Source of the DNA: Scytonema tolypothrichoides VB-61278
GTDB lineage: Bacteria > Cyanobacteriota > Cyanobacteriia > Cyanobacteriales > Nostocaceae
Length of the DNA: 64,000 bases
NCBI RefSeq assembly: GCF_000828085.3
Contig: NZ_JXCA02000027.1
Coordinates: forward strand, 224,483 to 288,482
Direction of reading: 5' to 3'
In this document: in pieces, positions 5,320 through 46,334 of the stretch
How positions within the stretch are numbered: the first letter of the stretch is position 1
How the letters are laid out: each line of letters opens with the position of its first letter
Notes under the pieces: generated by a model
Database searches by the model: none
Seen by the model: the letters and a program-made list of their open reading frames with translations, nothing else
What the model was told of the DNA's origin: nothing
Program-made: the position numbers and the translations under genes

Positions 5320-8300
5320 CTAATCAACGATTCCCAAGGCGAAATTCACCGTATAAGGTTCCTCAAGAGATTGCTGAATACTAGGTTTGATGGCGTCGAG
5401 ATAACGAGTAACAGCCTGGAGTTGTTCAGTATTGGGACGATAAGTGAGATTTCCTTGTTTTTCAAAAAGTGGTGCCGCTGTTATCGCCTTATAGTTAGAA
5501 TTGTCACATGAACCTTGAGTAAGCCAGATGGCATCTGTGCTGGTGGGGATCAAGCCAGAAGGTAACTCACCTTCCAAGAAAGCCATCAGGCGTTGCTCAC
5601 AAGTGCGGGTATTAATGCCACGATTCTCAAATAACTGGATAACTTCGCTAAAAGATATCGCTCTTGATGGCAGAATTCGCAGCAATTCTGTGAACAAGAA
5701 ATAGTCGGTGTACTGTTGTCTGGGAACGTCTAAGACTTGAGGATGCAGAGGAAGTACTGCTAAACCATATGCAACCCGACTGCAATTGGGAGAGTTATTT
5801 TCACCGAGATACAAATCTTGGATAATTTTAGCGTTGGGCAGTTTTTGCCGCAGCCAACGACTCACGGCTGCAACAGAAGCAACCCCACCTGTGAAAATAG
5901 CTTGATTGATTGCTTCTGTTGGCATGCCTTTGGCAACAAGTAACCGATTGATTTCTCGGTTGAGGCGTCGAACAAATGGGACAAATACCTGGCTTTCTAA
6001 GTCTCGTCGCTGCAAAACCCATTGCTGATCTGCTAATTCCAGGGTAAAAGATTCTTGGTGTTGCAAAATCAACTTAAGAGCGATCGCCGCATCAATAATC
6101 GCCTTTCCTAAAAGTGAACTTTCTAAGCGTTGCTGTAGGCGAATGCGTTCTCCAACATCTGGTTCGCCAGCCCGAGGGAGGTTCAATTCTTCCAAGCCTA
6201 AACTAGAAAAGGACATCTGATCTAAACCAAGAATTGCTGGTTGCCAATTATTGGAATTTGTGGTATGAGTTTTGGTATCTTCCTGAGAACTCGTACGTGG
6301 TTGTCGCCATTTAGATGGCAATAGCAATTGACAAATAATGTCTTGCTCTAATTCTTTGCCAGCATAAGCAAAACCGTGAAGCATAAAATCACTATGGGTG
6401 AGGTCTTCCACGTTTTCCGGCAAATCAACTAACGCCATTTCTGTTGCAGCAGCACCGATATTAAGGACGAAAGTATTACCCACAAAAGGGCGATCGCTGC
6501 TTTTTGCAAAACGAGTCCCCTCACTATCTGTGATTTTTACGATTTCACCTTCAGCGCCGTCAAGTTCACAGAGCAAACAAGCAATTCCTTCTTCCAGAAA
6601 AAAGACTTGTTGGGGATGCTGCACGAGTTTGCTGATGAGTATAGCTTCTCGGATGTTGAAGCGGTATTGTTCCGACCAGTTGGATGGGCAAGTGCAAATA
6701 ACACCAGTAATCTCATTGATAATACGACGGAAGGTTTCTTGGTCTAGACCAACGGCAGCCGCAGTTAAACCCAACGTCGTGCTACTGCGATCCTCGGTGA
6801 ATGTTAAGAGTAGTTTCGAGAGCGATCGCACAACCCAAACCAATGGAACAGTAGAAAATTCGTTTAATTGCAAAACTGGTTCCCATTTTTGTCCCTCACT
6901 CTTGTAAGGTAAAGCAATTTGCAGATAAGGTTTCAACTGCGCTGAGAATAAGTTATGCGTTGCAGCACTCGACTGAGGTGATGGAGAACTCGTAGCCATA
7001 TTCTCAGGTACTTTTTCTTCAGCCACAGCCGCAGGTGGTATCTGGTCTTGTGGATGTGAACTTTCTGTTTCAGTGCTTGTCACCGAAGCTGTTGGCAGAT
7101 AGACTTCTGCTGGCAAACGAAATGATCGTTTTATAGAAGTTGCTTCCTCTTGGGTTTGTGCTGCTGACCAATACAAAGGATACACTTGTGTTGTTGAGCG
7201 ATTTAACAAAGCAGCAGAAATTCCGGTTGTACCCAAATCAATTCCTAAATACCAAATAGATTTACGGGCGTCGTTATTTGTGGAACCAGAAATGGAGACA
7301 GAAGAACCGTCAATTTCTTCTTTTACCACACTTTTTTCAAGTTCCGCTTCTGGTTCTATTGTGCTTGAGTTTGGCGAAGTCTCTGCTTTTTCTTGATTTT
7401 CGCTTTGAGTCAAAGGGTGCAACAAAGCATTTATCTCCCCATCAAAACTCGCTAAATCTTGTTCCAATTGATCCAACTGCGCTTCTTCCAAGGAAATATC
7501 AACCATTTCTGGAGATTGATTTTCTTCTGGAAATAACACATTCTCAATCGGTGAAGCAGGAACGTTGTTCTTTGAAGACTCTTCTACATCACGATTTTGA
7601 ATTCCAGCTGCCGAAGATTCAGCAACATTCTGTGGGGAGGTTTCTACGGCTTCTGAAGTGATAGGTGCTGTGCTTGCTGCTAGTGACTCGCGGTTTGTAT
7701 CAGCCAATAAATCAGTCAACACTGTAATTATATTTTCACTTGTTGGACTCACTGGGCTGGTACTGTCCAAATCTTCCACAGGCGGTAATTCTGCCAATAT
7801 ATTTTCCTGAGGAATGGATGATTGTTCTGTGGTTTCCAAGCTGACATCTTGTGTCTGTTTGGCATCATCAGTACTGAGTTTCACAAGATCGGCTTCTAGT
7901 TCCTCCAACCAGGGATCTGGAATCTCAACAATAGAATCGAGTTGTTGTTGATTTGTTGCAGCGTCTTCTGAAGTTTCAGAGAGATTCGACACTGATGAAG
8001 GAGTTGTGACATCTGTCACCGGCTTTGTTGGCACTTGCGGTGCTTCAAAAGTTATTTCATACAGAAACTCTGATTGTGGTTGATGAGTGACAGTTGGTGG
8101 TGAAGTGTCGGCAGATGAAGTGAGTGTTGTTTGATCAAATAACTCATCTATGACATTTGTCACATCCGTCACAGTTGTGTCATCATCTGTTGTCACGGGT
8201 GTGGTTGTCGTTTGCTCCTCAAAAAACTGATCTATATCAGGTTCAGATAATTGATTTGTGACATCTGTACATTGAACTTGATCCCCAGCAGGTGTGGTTA

Positions 8301-9702
8301 TGCTTTGCTCAAATAACTCATCTGTAAGTTCAGATAATGTGAGAGTAGATAATTCATCTGTGATAATTGTGACTTCACTGGGTGCTGATACAGTTGCTGT
8401 TGGCTCATCAAAGAACTCATCTGTGATATCGGTGACTTTATCTTCTGTTGCCACATCTGTCACGTCAACACCAAACAAACTGGCATAAAGTTGGTCTACT
8501 TGATCACGAATGAACTGAGAACTATTCTGGTGTATAGCACTTTTGTCAGGAGTCTCTACGGTGTTTTGTGCGTCTTGCCTGTCCTGAAAAACGACTGCAT
8601 TCAAATCTGATGCATTCGCACTCTCCTGTTGTGCTTCCAAGCTGAGTGCTTGGTTATTTGGTGTCACCTCAGGTAACTCTGAAGCTAACTCGTTTGATTC
8701 TACTAACTGTGGTGTTTCATCTTTGACATTCTCAACAGATGGTTGGTTGATGGAAGTTTGTTGTTGCAACTGCTGTGTAAAATTGCTGATGAAACTTGCC
8801 AACAACTGTTCCCCTTGGACTCCTTTGCTGTGCATTCTCGCCAGCGCCTGGGACAAAGATTCATGATAAGTGTGAATATTGCCTTGTAATGCCTCAAAAA
8901 CAACATTCACAGTTCCATCAAGGGCAAGTAACTTTTGATCTAACTTGTTCCCAAGCCTTGATAAGCGTTCCACTTGGTCTGATGACTCAACTACAGGTGA
9001 GCCAGCGCGGTCTTGGGGAGCCAGTCCTGCAGGAGGGTTTCCCTCCGTAGGGATCTGGCGTTGGTTTCCCCCATGAGCGACTGGCGAAGCCCAAAGGGGT
9101 AAAGTCGAAGAGGTTGGAGATTCTGTGTTACCTTGGTAATCTATCACCAAATGTTGCATTTGAGAATTGGCAGCAGTTTCTGTTGTTTGTGGTGTGAAAT
9201 CAGACACAATTCTGCTTTTGAGCACCTGCAAAAATTCGGAAATTATCTGCTCCTGATTCGCTAATTGCTGTGCTAGAGAGTAGTTATGTAGCCGTTTTTG
9301 TTCTAATTGCCTGATTTCCTCGACAAGATTTGATCGCTCTTGCAACAGTGCTTTGATTTCTTCTTGGAACGATGCTAGAACTGCCGCAAATGGATTGCTT
9401 TCTTGTCCCAGCACAACATTAATATTTTCCTGTTGCTGTAAAGATTGCTGCTGGGGTAAGGATTGGTGATGATCCTGAGCAACAGATTTGGCTGGTGGGA
9501 GAAATTGTTGTGATTGTCGCTCTTGGGAGGTTTGAACCTGAGGATAACTTTCTGATAAATTGACCAAAAAGTCGCGAATTCGTTCTAAAACTTGTCGTAG
9601 TTCTGACCCTTGATTAGAGAAAAGCCTCGGTAGGCGCTTGTTGGTGAGTAAGCGGTCAATGTCTGCAATCAGTTGTTCAGTTTCTGTTGCGCGGGAAGTC
9701 AC
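5320..9702 (-). CDS. Giant Hsp70-family (DnaK-like ATPase) protein with long N-terminal extension
   Basis: A 1460-residue protein. Residues 1-170 are Gln-rich and predicted coiled coil; about 330-800 are low-complexity, acidic and Thr/Ser/Val-rich, with degenerate repeats of the type VTDVT...DELFDE between about 400 and 560. The actin-like ATPase starts at about 815 with WYLGIDLGTTGISAALL (phosphate-1 loop), continues with LNIGAAATEMALVD (phosphate-2) and ends with FTGGVASVAAVSRWL (adenosine loop). The ATPase is about twice interrupted by Pro/Ser-rich inserts compared with DnaK, and there is no typical substrate-binding domain. Substrates are unknown. About 20-40 residues near residues 213-235 are encoded by a dispersed genomic repeat (8999-9062). 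Confidence 0.8.
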   Translation of the reverse strand: MTSRATETEQLIADIDRLLTNKRLPRLFSNQGSELRQVLERIRDFLVNLSESYPQVQTSQERQSQQFLPPAKSVAQDHHQSLPQQQSLQQQENINVVLGQESNPFAAVLASFQEEIKALLQERSNLVEEIRQLEQKRLHNYSLAQQLANQEQIISEFLQVLKSRIVSDFTPQTTETAANSQMQHLVIDYQGNTESPTSSTLPLWASPVAHGGNQRQIPTEGNPPAGLAPQDRAGSPVVESSDQVERLSRLGNKLDQKLLALDGTVNVVFEALQGNIHTYHESLSQALARMHSKGVQGEQLLASFISNFTQQLQQQTSINQPSVENVKDETPQLVESNELASELPEVTPNNQALSLEAQQESANASDLNAVVFQDRQDAQNTVETPDKSAIHQNSSQFIRDQVDQLYASLFGVDVTDVATEDKVTDITDEFFDEPTATVSAPSEVTIITDELSTLTLSELTDELFEQSITTPAGDQVQCTDVTNQLSEPDIDQFFEEQTTTTPVTTDDDTTVTDVTNVIDELFDQTTLTSSADTSPPTVTHQPQSEFLYEITFEAPQVPTKPVTDVTTPSSVSNLSETSEDAATNQQQLDSIVEIPDPWLEELEADLVKLSTDDAKQTQDVSLETTEQSSIPQENILAELPPVEDLDSTSPVSPTSENIITVLTDLLADTNRESLAASTAPITSEAVETSPQNVAESSAAGIQNRDVEESSKNNVPASPIENVLFPEENQSPEMVDISLEEAQLDQLEQDLASFDGEINALLHPLTQSENQEKAETSPNSSTIEPEAELEKSVVKEEIDGSSVSISGSTNNDARKSIWYLGIDLGTTGISAALLNRSTTQVYPLYWSAAQTQEEATSIKRSFRLPAEVYLPTASVTSTETESSHPQDQIPPAAVAEEKVPENMATSSPSPQSSAATHNLFSAQLKPYLQIALPYKSEGQKWEPVLQLNEFSTVPLVWVVRSLSKLLLTFTEDRSSTTLGLTAAAVGLDQETFRRIINEITGVICTCPSNWSEQYRFNIREAILISKLVQHPQQVFFLEEGIACLLCELDGAEGEIVKITDSEGTRFAKSSDRPFVGNTFVLNIGAAATEMALVDLPENVEDLTHSDFMLHGFAYAGKELEQDIICQLLLPSKWRQPRTSSQEDTKTHTTNSNNWQPAILGLDQMSFSSLGLEELNLPRAGEPDVGERIRLQQRLESSLLGKAIIDAAIALKLILQHQESFTLELADQQWVLQRRDLESQVFVPFVRRLNREINRLLVAKGMPTEAINQAIFTGGVASVAAVSRWLRQKLPNAKIIQDLYLGENNSPNCSRVAYGLAVLPLHPQVLDVPRQQYTDYFLFTELLRILPSRAISFSEVIQLFENRGINTRTCEQRLMAFLEGELPSGLIPTSTDAIWLTQGSCDNSNYKAITAAPLFEKQGNLTYRPNTEQLQAVTRYLDAIKPSIQQSLEEPYTVNFALGIVD
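8999..9062. repeat. Dispersed GC-rich repeat inside the hsp70-like gene
   Basis: The first 26 bases (8999-9024, core gcggtcttggggagccag) match the reverse complement of 62565-62590 at 25 of 26 positions; that copy lies between der and ecfT. The rest (ctgcaggagggtttccc...) resembles the repeat at 28875-28945. The insertion keeps the reading frame of the host gene. Confidence 0.7.
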
Positions 9703-40210: not shown

Positions 40211-41722
40211 TCAAAAGTCCGCGATTAACCTTGCTTTCCTCAAAAAGAATTCCAGCACAGTCTCTTCTTTAGAAATAATATCGGCTGTGCCCTCCATCCC
40301 CAATTGCACAGAACACAGTTTTTTGCCTTGATATAAAGAAAGGTTTTCTGGCTCAATTGTGACTTCATAGAAAGCACCGATAACAGATGCTTTTTGGCTT
40401 GTCGCTGTTGTGGGAGCAACTGCAGTTGCACCATTGGCTTGAGGAACAAAAGCATCTGGAGAAATTGTTTTGACCTTACCTTTAAGAGTGCCGTAATCTG
40501 GATAGGGACAGGAAGAAACTCGCACGAGGACTTTTTGTCCTTCTTTCAACTTGCTTTTCTCCTGAGATGGGACAGATGCTTTGACTACCAAAGGAGCATC
40601 ACTAGGAACAATTTGAGCAATTTCTTCTCCTGGGCGCACAGTTTGACCAGAGTTTCGTAGGTTGAGTTTGGATATTATACCATCTGCTGTGGCAATAATG
40701 ACGGTTTGGCTCTTGTCGATTTCTACTTGTTGGAGTTCCCTGACGTCGCGTTCTAGCTGTTTTTGGGTTTCAATCTGTTTTTGAATCAGAGTTTTACGTT
40801 CTTTGTCTAAAGTCGCTAAGCTGGCAAGTCCTGTGGCTTTTTCTTGGGCAATGCGTTGTTGTGCGATCGCCACTTCTGCACCACTCGGATTAAGGATAGC
40901 TACTGCGCGTCGCCTTCTAGCAACAGCTGCCGAGACTGCTTGTTGTAGCCGTTCAATTGTTTGTTTTTGCGCCTCAATTGCTCCTTTTTGCTCTTCCACA
41001 GCTGACGATTGCTGCTCAACAGCCAGTTGTGCTTCCTCGAATTGATCCATAGAAAGCGCTCCTTGTTTGGCGACCTTTTGATATCGGTTTCGCTTTGACT
41101 GAGCTGCTGCTAAGGTAGCGACTGTTGCTCCCAAGTGAGCTTGATTTGACTTTAATTCTGCTTGAGCTTTTTGCAATTCCTCCTGGGCTATTTTGACGTT
41201 AGCCTCGGCTTCTTCGACATCAGCGGTGGTGGTAATTTTTTTATCTTCATATTCACGACTGCGACCGCTTAATTCAGCTTCGGCTGAGGCGACAACGCGG
41301 TTTATGCGATCGGTTTCGGCTGTTATTTGGTTATTAAGAGCACTTATCTGAGCGTTAATTTCAACCAGTTGTAACCGGGACTGTTGGATGCTACTTTGCA
41401 ATTGGCTGTGTTTAGTTTGAAGGCGACTGGCGTCGAGAGTAGCAATGACATCTCCTTTTTTGACAACTTGATTCTCTTTAACCCAAACACGCATAACAGG
41501 ACCTTCCGTTGCAGCTTGAACAATCCGCAACTCACCAGCAGGACGGAGATTCGCCTGTGCTTTAACGGTGACTTTGTATTTTGTCACAGAGGCAAGACCA
41601 AGAGCAAGAGCCAGAGCAGTGAGCATAACCAGTCCGCCAACAGTAGTCCAACGACTGATTGGCGGTAGAAAATCGTTTTCTTGAATTGGAGGGAGAAAGT
41701 CAGAGTTCGAGTGACTAAGCAT
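40211..41722 (-). CDS. HlyD family secretion adaptor
   Basis: A 503-residue membrane fusion protein of type I secretion. One transmembrane segment (VGGLVMLTALALALGLASV, about 28-46) is followed by a lipoyl half-domain (MRVWVKENQVVKKGDVIATLD), a very long coiled coil (about 110-340) and the second lipoyl half (IIATADGIISKLNLRNSGQTVRPGEEI) plus a beta-barrel. It starts 7 bp after the C39 ABC transporter gene ends, so the two form one operon. It would couple the exporter to an outer-membrane channel that is not encoded here. Confidence 0.9.
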   Translation of the reverse strand: MLSHSNSDFLPPIQENDFLPPISRWTTVGGLVMLTALALALGLASVTKYKVTVKAQANLRPAGELRIVQAATEGPVMRVWVKENQVVKKGDVIATLDASRLQTKHSQLQSSIQQSRLQLVEINAQISALNNQITAETDRINRVVASAEAELSGRSREYEDKKITTTADVEEAEANVKIAQEELQKAQAELKSNQAHLGATVATLAAAQSKRNRYQKVAKQGALSMDQFEEAQLAVEQQSSAVEEQKGAIEAQKQTIERLQQAVSAAVARRRRAVAILNPSGAEVAIAQQRIAQEKATGLASLATLDKERKTLIQKQIETQKQLERDVRELQQVEIDKSQTVIIATADGIISKLNLRNSGQTVRPGEEIAQIVPSDAPLVVKASVPSQEKSKLKEGQKVLVRVSSCPYPDYGTLKGKVKTISPDAFVPQANGATAVAPTTATSQKASVIGAFYEVTIEPENLSLYQGKKLCSVQLGMEGTADIISKEETVLEFFLRKARLIADF

Positions 41723-41729
41723 AATAATT

Positions 41730-43955
41730 TTATTTACTGATTGCAGGAGATTTGCCGTTAGATTCAGATTTGGGGGAAGATTTCACCACCAAACCATTCT
41801 TTGATGGGGCAAAGTCGTCTAAAAAGTCTAAGTGGTCACCAGGAACAAGCCGTAGTTCCTGTGGAGTGCCTTGGATTTTCAAGCGTCCTTCCTCAAGCAG
41901 TACAATCCAATCGGCTCGCCCAATGACTTTCGGGCGATGGCTAATCATAATTGTGGTTTTCCCTTGTCGGTAGTACAGCAATTTATCTAGCACTTGCGCT
42001 TCACTCACTGGGTCGAGAGCGCCAGTAGATTCATCTAAAATCAGTACAGGCGGTTCAGTCACTATTGCCCTGGCTATAGCCAATCTCTGCCGTTGTCCAC
42101 CAGAAAGATTTGCGCCAAATTCTCCTAAAACAGTTTGATATTTGTCGGGCAGTTTACTAATAAACTCGTCTGCACCTGCTATCTGACAAGCCCTGACAAT
42201 TTGCTCAAAACTGATGTTCGGATAACTGAAGCGGAAGTTATCAATAATTGAACGACTCCAAAAGTGGGGTTCTTGAGGTACCAGAACGACCTGTTGTCGC
42301 AGACATTCTAGAGAAAGGTCTTGCTGATTATAAATACCGTAGCGAATATTACCAGATTGCAGGGAATATAAACCAGCAATCAGTTTGGCGAGAGTACTTT
42401 TGCCACAGCCAGATTTACCAATCAGGGCAATGACTTGACCGCCAGGAATAGTGAGGGAAAAATCTTCCAGCAGGTCAACTCTACCTGCGTGGTGAAAGTT
42501 TAGGCTGGTACAGATAATATCTGCATTGCCCGTAATTTCTGCGATGGGCTTTTTGAAGTCATTTTCATCTTCCGGGGTAGCGTCAATCACCTCTGTCAGG
42601 CGTTGGATGACAATCCCAGCAGTGATAAACTCATCAACTAACCCGATGACTGAGCCCAAAAAGCCGAGAAAGTTACCACTCAAGCCGTTATACGCCATCA
42701 ACTGACCGATGGTTAAGGTGCGATTAATCACCAAATAGCTACCTAACCAAAGTAAGGCAATACTGGTAAAACTGGAGAGAATACTGGTGATAGTGCCGGT
42801 GTAAAGTCCCAGCTTCATCGTACTCCAGCCCAAGTTCGCAAGACGACCATAATTCGTTTGATACTCTTGCCAAGCTTGGGGTGTAGCTTGGGTAGTTTTG
42901 AGAACCTGGACACCGCGAAAAGTTTCCACAAGAAAGCCTTGGTTTTCTGTACCCAAGACAATCTGGTTGCGGGTTTTCTGGCGCAAGGCGGGGAGAAAAA
43001 GCAGGTTGACTCCCGTGACGACAACAAAAGCGGCGAGGGAAGCCACAGTCAGTTCCCAACTGTAAAAGAGCATGAAACCCAACGAAACCAAGGCGATGAA
43101 AAATTGGCTGGGTAACCCGAGGACGATTTGGGAAACTAGAGTATTGATGGCGTTAACATCGGCAATCCGGCTAACAACTTCCCCACTGCGCCGTCCTTCA
43201 AAATATGAAAGGGGCAAATGCAGGAGTTTTCGCCCGTATTCCAGGATGAGTCCTAATTGCAACCGCTGACCAAAGTGACCAATCAGGTGAGATTGTACCA
43301 AGCCAATGGCACTTCTAAATAAGTTCATAGCAATCACCCCAATTGCCACTGTGGTAAGCAGTTGGGTATCTCCCCGCACCAGCACGTCATCGGTGAGCAG
43401 TTGCATCATCAACGGCGAGGCGAGGGAGAGAAGTCCAATGGCGATGTTGATGGCGATCGCCTGGGCGAGAATGAAGCGATAAGGCCAAACGCGCGCCAGA
43501 TAACGCCCAAAGCCGCCAACTTTATCTTCCGGTTGTTGATAAAAGCTACTGTCATCTGGTTCCAGCAGCAGCATCACGCCATTGCCCCAACCCGCCATTA
43601 ACTCAGAGCGGGTGAGATAGCGAATGCCCACGCCTGGGTCAGCAAGTGCATATTTTTTCCCCTTTTGCCCGTACAAAACGACCCAATGGTAGCCTTTCCA
43701 GTGTATGATGGCAGGTAGGGAGACTTTATGCAAAGAGTCAAGCAGTTGTGGAGAAGCTTTGACTTGACGGGCATTGAATCCTAAAGCTTCGGCTCCCCGT
43801 CTCAACCCTAGTAGGCTAGTTCCTCGTGACCCAGTGCCGACTGTTTCACGAACGCGACTGATGGCAAAGGTGCGTCCGTAATGTTTGGCAACAGTAGCAA
43901 TGCAGGCAGCACCACAGTCTTCTTCACTGTGTTGTAGTACACTGTTGTATTTCAT
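41730..43955 (-). CDS. C39-peptidase-containing ABC exporter (PCAT)
   Basis: A 741-residue leader-cleaving exporter. The N-terminal C39 peptidase has C14 (EEDCGAAC), H90 (WKGYHWVV) and D106 (LADPGVG), so it should cut after double-glycine leaders. Six membrane helices follow (about 165-430), then the ABC ATPase with Walker A GKSGCGKST, signature LSGGQRQR and Walker B PVLILDEST. I chose ATG 43955: homology starts at MKYNSVLQHS. An upstream GTG would add 29 residues that come from a dispersed repeat (44042-44075). The HlyD gene follows, and the crystallin gene precedes it on the same strand. Confidence 0.92.
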   Translation of the reverse strand: MKYNSVLQHSEEDCGAACIATVAKHYGRTFAISRVRETVGTGSRGTSLLGLRRGAEALGFNARQVKASPQLLDSLHKVSLPAIIHWKGYHWVVLYGQKGKKYALADPGVGIRYLTRSELMAGWGNGVMLLLEPDDSSFYQQPEDKVGGFGRYLARVWPYRFILAQAIAINIAIGLLSLASPLMMQLLTDDVLVRGDTQLLTTVAIGVIAMNLFRSAIGLVQSHLIGHFGQRLQLGLILEYGRKLLHLPLSYFEGRRSGEVVSRIADVNAINTLVSQIVLGLPSQFFIALVSLGFMLFYSWELTVASLAAFVVVTGVNLLFLPALRQKTRNQIVLGTENQGFLVETFRGVQVLKTTQATPQAWQEYQTNYGRLANLGWSTMKLGLYTGTITSILSSFTSIALLWLGSYLVINRTLTIGQLMAYNGLSGNFLGFLGSVIGLVDEFITAGIVIQRLTEVIDATPEDENDFKKPIAEITGNADIICTSLNFHHAGRVDLLEDFSLTIPGGQVIALIGKSGCGKSTLAKLIAGLYSLQSGNIRYGIYNQQDLSLECLRQQVVLVPQEPHFWSRSIIDNFRFSYPNISFEQIVRACQIAGADEFISKLPDKYQTVLGEFGANLSGGQRQRLAIARAIVTEPPVLILDESTGALDPVSEAQVLDKLLYYRQGKTTIMISHRPKVIGRADWIVLLEEGRLKIQGTPQELRLVPGDHLDFLDDFAPSKNGLVVKSSPKSESNGKSPAISK

Positions 43956-44041: not shown

Positions 44042-44075
44042 CAACCCCTCTCCTAACTTGGGAGAGGGTTGGGGA
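44042..44075. repeat. Dispersed hairpin repeat (cccctctcc...gggagaggg)
   Basis: A palindromic unit, CAACCCCTCTCCTAACTTGG and its complement side, upstream of the C39 exporter gene. A common type of dispersed repeat in cyanobacterial intergenic DNA. Confidence 0.6.
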
Positions 44076-44191: not shown

Positions 44192-44536
44192 CTATGCTAC
44201 ACGTCTGAGAGAACTCACCCAGTCATTTGGAAATCCCGTGTCTCGAGGAAGAACAGGGTATGATCCTGGTCCCAGAATTCTACTTGGACCCTGATAGTTT
44301 ATGTCTCTGAAAAACTCCCATCTTTCTCCCGCCGAAATAAAAATAGATGAGGTTTTGTCGTTGAAATTAGAGTTACGCAGGTCGCGGTCACCAAACCCAA
44401 CCGGTGCAAAAACCGTCGCTACACGCCCTGGGGCAAACGGTCCATTCTCGTATAAATCTACATAACCTCCACTACAGGTAGCAGCAACCTCATTGTCAAG
44501 TTCCGTAAACAATTGTTCATGCTGATTGTCTTTCAT
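44192..44536 (-). CDS. Beta/gamma-crystallin protein with double-glycine leader (predicted exporter cargo)
   Basis: A 114-residue protein. Residues 1-24 form a leader ending TCSGG (G23-G24), of the type cut by C39 peptidases, with L13 at position -12 and acidic residues before it. The remaining 90 residues are one beta/gamma-crystallin domain: VDLYEN starts the first Greek key, and two Ca-binding signatures (N/D-N/D-x-x-S/T-S) are present as NDKTSS (59-64) and NDWVSS (104-109). AGGAG lies 8 bases before the ATG. The C39 exporter and HlyD genes follow on the same strand, so this is their likely cargo. It would be exported as a small Ca-binding protein. Export is inferred. Confidence 0.8.
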   Translation of the reverse strand: MKDNQHEQLFTELDNEVAATCSGGYVDLYENGPFAPGRVATVFAPVGFGDRDLRNSNFNDKTSSIFISAGERWEFFRDINYQGPSRILGPGSYPVLPRDTGFPNDWVSSLRRVA

Positions 44537-45082
44537 CTTTTTTCTCCTAATTAAGTGTGATTGTTCTGTGTCGTTCCTTGAGGAACTGTCGTTTTGGAAA
44601 GCAGACGCAAAACCTGTTGTTTTGATCTGCTACCTACTTCTCGGTGAGTTATGCCTGTGTTTTATGCAAAGCATTAGTTCTTGTAACATTTCTTCACAAA
44701 ACGAATGGCAAGGCTGGCTGCACCCCAGTCTTGTTCACTATGCTGTACACTCTGGTAGTTCATAATCACGAAGAATGGTAGCTACTCTTGGGTGTGAATT
44801 TTTCTGTTTCGTCTTCACGTTTTCCAACTGGGAAAGATGTTTAGGTTTCCCTCTTTTTCCTTCCCACACCTCTAGAATCCTCTTTCTACAGAGACTTGAC
44901 GGCGCATCTTTGGCGCATCCTTGGCTCAGTTTTTGGTTCACTGCCTTTGCCCGTGTGTCAAAATATATGTATGGATAAAATGCGGTTAAAAAACAAAAGC
45001 ATCTCAATCCAAAATGCTGTAACTGTAGTCTGTAGCTTGGTATATTACCGCACGCATTGAGATGCACCCCTTGAGGACGACT
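44537..45082. other. Region between crystallin gene and NB-ARC pseudogene
   Basis: It holds the crystallin promoter (near 44540-44600), the C39 fragment at 44674-44763, and otherwise no gene. The minus-strand frame at 44738-45067 has no family features. Confidence 0.5.
44674..44763 (-). pseudogene. Decayed N-terminal fragment of a second C39 peptidase gene
   Basis: A 29-codon frame encodes MNYQSV-QHSEQDWGAASLA..., which aligns with the start of the intact exporter MKYNSVLQHSEEDCGAACIA. The catalytic Cys is Trp here, one residue is missing, and the frame stops after VKKCYKN. It lies 140 bp upstream of the crystallin ATG on the same strand. It is a relic of a duplicated or rearranged exporter gene. 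Confidence 0.7.
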
Positions 45083-46334
45083 ATGGCAAGTTCACTCCGC
45101 GCCTCGCCCCAAGGGCTAAAAACAGTTGACCAAGCAAGAATCGGCAAGGGTTGGGATAGGCAATCTGCTGCTTGGGCAGATGCAGCTAAGGCTTCAGTCG
45201 CAACTTTGAAAAGGTTTTGGCAAAAAAAGTATATTCAAGCACAGTTTTTTATCGATATTTGTGCGGTAGTTGGAGTGCACTGGCAAGAAATTGTTGATAG
45301 TTTTGTGAATGAAGATTGGGACGAAGCGCCAGATGTACCAGTTTTCTATGGACGTATGGAAGAACTAGCCACGCTACAGCAATGGATTGTACAAGACCAC
45401 TGCCGTGTGGTAGCAGTACTAGGTATGGGGGGAATTGGCAAAACTACTCTGGCGGTACGCTGTGTAGAACAAATTAAAGGTGAGTTTGAGTATGTGATTT
45501 GGCGATCGCTCACCAGAAGCCGTTCCGCGTCTACGTTTCGTCATCCTCCATCGGCTAGCGATTTACTAGCAAGTTTGCTTTTTTTCTTTCATCAGAAGCA
45601 GGATAATCAGGCAACATTATCACAATTAGTTGATTATTTACGTCAACACCGTTGTTTAGTGGTATTAGATGATTTAGATGCAATTTTGGACAGTGCTGGT
45701 GAAGGATACGAAGGTTATGGAGAACTCATTAGACGACTTGGAGAAGAACGTGATTTGCCAAGTTGTTTAATACTAACTAGTCAACAAAAAGCAAAAGAAA
45801 TTGTTTTGTTAGAAGGTCATAAGCTTCCTGTGCGGTCGTTTCTACTGAAGGGTTTGGGAGAAGCAGCTCATGAAATTCTCAATGAAGTAGAGTTGACGTA
45901 GAAACTACAAAAAGGGGAATAACTTATTCAAATGTACCGAGGAAATCCCTTGGCGTTGAAAATAGTTTTTTAAACTATCAAAGACTAGTTTGGAGGTAGT
46001 GTAGCTGAATTTTTAAGACACAACACAATAGTACTTGGTGATATATTTAGAGACATTTTAGATCTACAGTTTCAACGACTGTCAGAGCTATAAAAAAAAA
46101 GTTATGCACGCCTTAGTTATTTATCAACAGCCGATTCCCTTACAGCAATTAAGAGAAAATATATCATCAACTGTATCAACATCAGAAATCATTGAAGCTT
46201 TAGACTCTTTGAGTAGGCGATCGCTTCTTGAAACCACTAAAGAACAAAGTAAAGTGCTTTACACACTACAACCGGTTGTGATGAAGTACGTTAGAAGAGT
46301 TTATCCACAAGGTTTGTCAAGTCAGAACGATTAA
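45083..46334 (+). pseudogene. NB-ARC ATPase gene with multiple stops and a frameshift
   Basis: The N-terminal helical domain (MASSLRASPQGLKTVDQARI ... LKRFWQKKYIQAQFFIDICAVVG) is typical of cyanobacterial NB-ARC signalling proteins. The P-loop GMGGIGKTTLAVRC and the kinase-2 motif CLVVLDDLD are intact, but the frame is lost near 45899. Downstream, matching sequence continues with in-frame stops (LIQMYRGNPLALKIVF-stop-TIKD-stop-FGGSVAEFLRHN) and a slip in the A-run at 46092-46100 before MHALVIYQQPIPL. No WD40 or TPR sensor part follows. Relatives act in STAND-type signalling or anti-phage defence; this copy is dead. Confidence 0.8.

Follow-up and report, generated by a model that had tools for sequence, protein, structure and literature searches.

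The closest described relatives of the locus presented here are the cyanobacterial double-glycine 'bacteriocin' clusters of group III, which, in the passages of the survey that describe them, likewise combine a short C39 exporter with HlyD and carry GG-leader precursors next to the exporter, often several of them (PMC3140520). The precursor classes that Wang et al. 2011 name there are NHLP, N11P, HetP, DUF37 and 150 'other' sequences, whereas the cargo of our locus is a 90-aa beta/gamma-crystallin; the word 'crystallin' is absent from the main text of that paper, and crystallins with a GG leader may be among its 'other' precursors (PMC3140520). A second relative is the system of Synechococcus elongatus, where EbfG1-4, likewise GG-motif proteins, need the C39 exporter PteB and have their role in biofilm formation rather than as antibiotics; in the available text of these papers, in which 'crystallin' does not occur, EbfG1-3 form amyloid and mature EbfG1-4 are without a domain of known function, unlike the crystallin studied here (PMC4997328, PMC9981879). 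On the side of the cargo, protein S of Myxococcus xanthus and M-crystallin belong to the beta/gamma-crystallin sequence family, as our protein does. Protein S, which forms a Ca-dependent spore coat, has two domains where ours has one, and the account of it in the cited source mentions no GG leader (PMC10574481). RTX type I secretion, finally, combines glycine-rich nonapeptide repeats with an exporter whose C39-like domain is inactive, whereas the C39 domain encoded at our locus has C14 and no RTX-type nonapeptide repeats were seen in the 114-aa product.

The window, by which we mean the whole stretch of 64,000 nucleotides from Scytonema tolypothrichoides VB-61278 that was analysed, carries on its minus strand a crystallin precursor gene (44192-44536, an ORF with an ATG start) whose 114-aa product begins with a double-glycine leader of 24 aa, MKDNQHEQLFTELDNEVAATCSGG (residues 1-24, ending in GG; 44465-44536, minus strand), and continues as a mature crystallin domain (residues 25-114; 44195-44464, minus strand) of 90 aa and 10.1 kDa, with a pI of 6.4, a GRAVY of -0.42 and no cysteine. 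Colicin V is comparable in size to this domain. In a Pfam scan the product matches PF00030 (Crystall) at 7.5e-8, with 32.8 bits against a cut-off of 25, and a profile of 31 relatives (A1), compared with the PDB, matches solved beta, gamma and microbial crystallins across the domain, protein S (1prr, 3.1e-13) and M-crystallin among them; the best PDB match of the window crystallin as a single sequence is again M-crystallin. Two Ca-binding signatures fit the strict motif [ND][ND]xx[ST]S, namely NDKTSS (residues 59-64; 44345-44362, minus strand) and NDWVSS (residues 104-109; 44210-44227, minus strand), and when the mature sequence was shuffled 200,000 times, at least two such motifs arose in 59 cases. 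Paired signatures of this sort are, with the double Greek-key fold, hallmarks of the family. A first-pass annotation of this DNA, which gave no strand, had described a 114-residue product with a 24-residue GG leader and a single crystallin domain bearing these two signatures, and the description was borne out on each of these points. Gene and leader are confirmed as a real observation, and it is not a matter of chance, since the gene pairing recurs and all 31 aligned relatives have the GG. The crystallins closest to this one, at loci L044 and L076, are 47-48% identical to it.

Downstream of the crystallin gene, with 236 nt from its stop to the exporter start, lies the gene of a C39 peptidase-containing ABC exporter of 741 aa (41730-43955, minus strand), followed by that of an HlyD-family membrane fusion protein of 503 aa (40211-41722, minus strand; PF13437 at 3.2e-16, TIGR01843 below its cut-off), which is the same-strand order that the first pass had proposed. 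The exporter consists of Peptidase_C39 (PF03412, 1.1e-34), ABC_membrane (PF00664) and ABC_tran (PF00005). Its residues 2-707 match PCAT1 (4ry2), and its sequence resembles PCAT1 and ComA over nearly its whole length. The C39 catalytic residues that it shares with the PCAT1, ComA and CvaB exporters, here C14, H90 and D106, are all present together with Walker A, signature and Walker B, and it shows the fusion of a C39 domain having Cys, His and Asp with TMD and NBD by which a PCAT is recognized. All NCBIfam models among the 25 matches listed for the exporter remained below their own cut-offs, and the score for the NHLP bacteriocin exporter model TIGR03796 was 413.8 bits against an equivalog cut-off of 853.3. 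Scans for RNA families and promoters gave nothing above chance. A REP-like imperfect palindrome can be seen by eye at 44043-44074, in the gap that separates the crystallin and exporter genes, and a NB-ARC/NACHT (STAND) gene, perhaps truncated, occupies 45062-46334 on the plus strand, upstream of the cassette (ORFs of 279 and 76 aa).

Because a choice of loci by their exporter was to be avoided, the recurrence of the pairing was surveyed in 291 genomes of the order starting from PF00030. A match at E<=1e-3 was found in 34 of these genomes and a match over the cut-off in 28, the 43 matches over the cut-off corresponding to 39 genes. A GG leader was recognized in 18 of the 39 (leader HMM, at least 7 bits), 14 of which adjoin a same-strand C39 exporter at a distance of 90-3664 nt; three of the other four (L078 twice, L079) meet a contig end on the exporter side, and L074 is an orphan with no exporter within the region fetched. 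Among the 21 crystallin genes without a leader match, the only one that adjoins an exporter is a broken GG-leader gene (L057), and the other 20 do not adjoin one within the roughly 8 kb fetched per side where the contig allowed (only 0.7 kb downstream at L090), up to 12 kb upstream being fetched for exporter loci; L075 is a 64-aa fragment whose start is possibly lost. The association of leader and exporter gives a Fisher value of 6.5e-9 when the broken gene and those GG genes that are doubtful are left out, and of 2.6e-6 when every doubtful gene is counted against the pairing. The leader HMM had no match of at least 7 bits in 19 loci of leaderless crystallins. Conservation among its matches is partly a selection effect, because its training set consisted of 37 leaders from the very loci under study; in the 31 aligned relatives, whose rows were chosen partly by leader score, E16, A18, A19 and S22 are nearly as invariant as the GG itself. 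Profile A1 found 13 matches at E<=1e-5 in 386 genomes of the phylum, every one in the window's order. The window crystallin itself has the N-terminal leader ending in GG and the gene position next to the exporter that define the group. At L057, the broken gene (7315-7611) is interrupted by stops and lies next to intact copies, and at L089, L090 and L091 a leaderless crystallin domain is followed by what looks by eye like a CAP/SCP-like region (ORFs of 217-258 aa).

Exporters of this kind are present in at least 145 of the 291 genomes in a search at 1e-150 (three candidates scored per genome). Among the matches listed, we compared 34 loci with an exporter identity of at least 80% (set A, window included, two of them partial) with 40 control loci at 63-74%: by the crystallin HMM, crystallin cargo occurs at 14 of the 34 listed set-A loci against none of the 40 listed controls (Fisher 3e-6), L076, which has crystallin cargo and an exporter cut by a contig end, being excluded from the 34. 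HlyD adjoins the exporter at 31 of the 34 listed set-A loci. In a tree built from 83 exporters, among them named relatives, 39 A-type tips form one clade with a support of 0.842, two of these tips (L038 and L056) being a single record fetched twice; the set-A exporters of L064, L068 and L073 lie outside the clade and are without a leader ORF. Crystallin cargo is found on 18 of the 39 tips and requires at least four changes. Since none of 1000 label shuffles needed so few, its distribution on the clade is patchy but not random.

Besides crystallins, other GG-leader proteins are encoded next to these exporters. Clustering of cargo over the loci gave 35 crystallins, 10 members of a family with TIRNKT-like motifs and seven of an Asp-rich family (A2), which by eye looks C2-like, besides a third family of four proteins, a fourth of three distinct ones, a pair of amphipathic peptides, one DUF4189 protein and singletons. 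When 20 cargo proteins were scanned with Pfam, only crystallins and DUF4189 exceeded a cut-off; a PHROGs search with six proteins returned nothing, and a PDB profile search for two non-crystallin families returned nothing credible. The DUF4189 protein (PF13827, 2.6e-22), with a GG leader and the same exporter type nearby, is encoded at 8820-9218 of locus L037 in Nostoc sp. CHAB 5836, and a GG-leader cargo at 2467-2862 of L050, on which Pfam is silent, has an end that resembles an H-type lectin by eye. In set A together with L076, the 51 mature cargos have a median of 90 aa and 10.3 kDa and a maximum of 12.8 kDa, and 29 of them exceed 10 kDa; the relevant part of a review puts the limit for active C39 exporters, whose substrates it describes as of bacteriocin type, at about 10 kDa (PMC8277102). 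With the leader HMM, which is biased against the controls, 10 ORFs were recognized at 7 of the 40 control loci, their mature parts being 20-81 aa long.

Comparison of cassettes, defined as a cargo gene with up to 250 nt upstream (65 distinct ones after removal of a duplicate record), suggests that leader and cargo act as separate modules. DNA homology into the coding start was found in 129 pairs of cassettes with different cargo, which involve 38 cassettes, 17 of them of crystallins, and are not independent; it ends at or before GG in 128 of these pairs (4 nt tolerance) and runs 12 nt past GG in the one exception. Homologous leaders and upstream DNA thus precede unrelated domains, as module exchange predicts, with the reservation that unrelated cargo cannot match past the leader. 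In genome G233, for example, a crystallin and an Asp-rich cargo have a stretch of 98 nt in common (87%), which begins 14 nt ahead of the start codon and extends to GG. Because relatives put closely related leaders on quite different small proteins, the exporter appears to deliver interchangeable cargo. Synonymous divergence is of little help in dating such exchange: of the 15 pairs suited to the comparison, 8 have a lower dS in the cargo than in the exporter and 7 a higher one. This says nothing clear on exchange, and the idea of recent cargo exchange drawn from low dS was set aside as a mixed signal. The first pass had made its proposal, that the crystallin is cargo of the C39 exporter, depend on a conserved pairing in other genomes and on a leader conserved alongside the domain. 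With 14 of 18 GG-leader crystallin genes next to a C39 exporter, and with leaders that are conserved and common to unrelated cargo while the domain is the variable part, the proposal is supported by the genomic evidence; what stands is a recurrent pairing, and what falls is any notion of a dedicated partner, the crystallin being one of several interchangeable cargo types.

The window offers a direct view of this variability. The constant 5' block of its cassette, made up of the upstream region and the first 12 codons (44501-44711, minus strand), precedes other cargo in relatives: it is 90% identical to 7824-8036 of L040 and 93% identical to 7112-6901 of L167, and the homology ends at 44501, the final base of leader codon 12. 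The block is present in three of seven genomes of the genus, the window's included. In L040, from Brasilonema sp. UFV-L1 (also L168/G590), which by the grouping used belongs to the window's genus, the DNA matches the window at 93.4% over 43955-40193 (exporter and HlyD), at 91.5% over 46317-44501 (1.8 kb upstream) and at 93.4% over 49000-47696, with no match in the DNA comparison between 44501 and 43955; the crystallin occupies this interval in the window, and in L040 it is filled by two other cargos, with a copy of the 5' block in front of each. Scytonema hyalinum (L039) matches at 86% over exporter and HlyD, at 85% over 46315-44792 and at 92% over 49000-47698, and its cargo consists of a crystallin only 33% identical to that of the window and a protein resembling one from L040. 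Since cargo differs between matching flanks, these are three species with three cargo sets in one place, where the window's crystallin may be either a newcomer or a retained cargo. In the congener L167 (G588) two non-crystallin cargos adjoin the exporter, at a place that may differ from the window locus, because its flanks did not match the window.

The window's leader itself is a hybrid. For its nucleotides 1-36 the best agreement is with leaders that precede other cargo types (35 of 36 with L040_7299), and for its last 40 nt it is with the leaders of crystallins (36 of 40 with each of L051, L043, L039 and L034); the two leader types that meet in it have the EL codons in common. To judge from the sequences, this hybrid could have arisen by recombination between cassettes or by deletion within a tandem leader, either being conceivable because both leader cores stand in tandem at L032, L033, L034 and L039. 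The second crystallin cluster of the window's own genome (L051, on contig C3) was considered as the donor but does not stand out as such: the leaders of L043, L039 and L034 match equally well, and its crystallin, at 37% identity, is not the closest one. Upstream of the cassette, at 44708-44763 on the minus strand, there is a remnant of an exporter 5' end, which across 59 nt has 78% identity with the opening codons of the exporter gene in the window, and such a remnant is also found at 7131-7222 of L040. Tandem duplication, with the exporter start carried along, may account for a spread of the cassette block.

Our preferred reading, to which we give a probability of about 0.78, is that the window encodes a secreted beta/gamma-crystallin, cleaved by C39 and exported through ABC/HlyD, which is an exchangeable cargo with a surface- or matrix-binding role. 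Following the known C39 mechanism, the exporter would bind the leader through its C39 domain, whose cysteine would cut the precursor after G24, and the 10 kDa domain would pass through the ABC/HlyD channel and fold outside, where Ca could fill its two sites. Efficient secretion of GG proteins in S. elongatus needs the C39 cysteine, according to the experiments described for that system (PMC4997328). The cassettes of the exporter clade would consist of a more constant part, the 5' region with the leader, and an exchangeable cargo domain, and the window's hybrid leader would have been built by recombination or deletion within leaders. That the delivered domain is a surface- or matrix-binding module would be the weakest step; by analogy this role seems most likely, because the EbfG proteins, likewise exported, serve the biofilm matrix and protein S is a Ca-assembled coat. 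A broader proposal, towards which we lean slightly, is that the exporter clade would be a dedicated platform for interchangeable small folded domains (crystallin, the Asp-rich family, several unnamed families, DUF4189), with the 5' region and leader as the address and recombination in the leader swapping the domains behind it, which would result in a species-specific, polymorphic secretome, possibly with Ca-triggered folding on the outside.

Other functions of the same genes have to be weighed, the first pass having named a matrix, adhesion or antagonism protein as possible. The crystallin could be an antagonistic effector, comparable to a bacteriocin or killer toxin, with cargo exchange reflecting an arms race. 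Five GG-leader crystallins at L062 and six at L052 would fit this, four of those at L062 having leaders 95-100% identical and cargo 40-75% identical, as would the cargo dN/dS (NG86) of 0.2-2.4 in 17 of 18 pairs, the remaining one being saturated, compared with 0.05-0.13 for the exporters. A crystallin-like fold also occurs in some killer toxins with antifungal activity, made by yeast and Streptomyces. On the other hand, none of the 18 cargo pairs shows a significant excess of dN over dS (NG86; lowest p 0.085, in the L078 pair), and no ORF of at least 60 aa, as a possible immunity gene, lies between crystallin and exporter; even with the description of C39 exporters as bacteriocin carriers in parts of the review literature (PMC8277102), we regard an antagonistic role as possible but rather unlikely. 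The calcium sites suggest another alternative, in which the domain would be disordered in the Ca-poor cytoplasm and fold on Ca outside, driving export as in RTX proteins, which the cited account describes as working in this way with cytoplasmic Ca below 100 nM (PMC3034196). The window protein, with its two strict motifs, may well bind Ca, another cargo family of these exporters (A2) is Asp-rich, and the bacterial crystallin hahellin is reported in the same vein to be disordered without Ca; however, M-crystallin, the best single-sequence PDB match, is folded with and without Ca in that report (PMC8639718), and the 31 aligned GG-leader crystallins have both strict motifs in 15 cases, one in 8 and none in 8. 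Binding of Ca is therefore not required by the exporter clade, universal Ca-gated folding is weakened, and gated export seems to us a doubtful, tentative idea. For the Ca-binding crystallin cargo proposed in the first pass, this means that both motifs hold for the window protein and that the property does not extend to the 8 of 31 relatives with neither.

Two further readings concern the identity of the protein and its link with the exporter. PF03995 (Inhibitor_I36) is a weak second match on the crystallin ORF, barely over its cut-off (21.4 against 21.1 bits), from which one might propose that the protein is secreted to inhibit peptidases, as a relative of family I36. The Streptomyces I36 inhibitor is disulphide-bonded, in contrast to the cysteine-free mature domain of the window, and the Crystall model scores higher, at 32.8 bits; an I36 identity was rejected as the weaker of the two matches, and an inhibitor is improbable. 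It could also be that leader and exporter are neighbours of the crystallin by chance and that the protein stays intracellular, as the leaderless crystallins of cyanobacteria may, 20 genes without leader match occurring in the same order, the broken gene aside. Both Fisher values for the pairing, and the leader HMM with its lack of matches in the 19 leaderless loci, argue so firmly against coincidence that we give this reading hardly any weight.

The secreted, exchangeable crystallin that we favour is assembled from familiar parts, exporter, GG leader and crystallin domain each being of a known kind. New, it appears, are the repeated association of these parts, the way in which it is concentrated in a single exporter clade, and the swapping of domain-sized cargo at the leader; among the matches listed in a search of titles and abstract starts in open-licence PMC literature, there was no report of crystallins as GG-leader cargo. 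The sufficiency of the leader alone as an address becomes directly testable. If such a clade regularly has crystallins and other domains of some 80-113 residues as its cargo, C39 exporters would be a route for folded proteins in cyanobacteria, some bacterial beta/gamma-crystallins would have a site at which to act, and combinations of leader and cargo already tried by nature would be available for secretion engineering.
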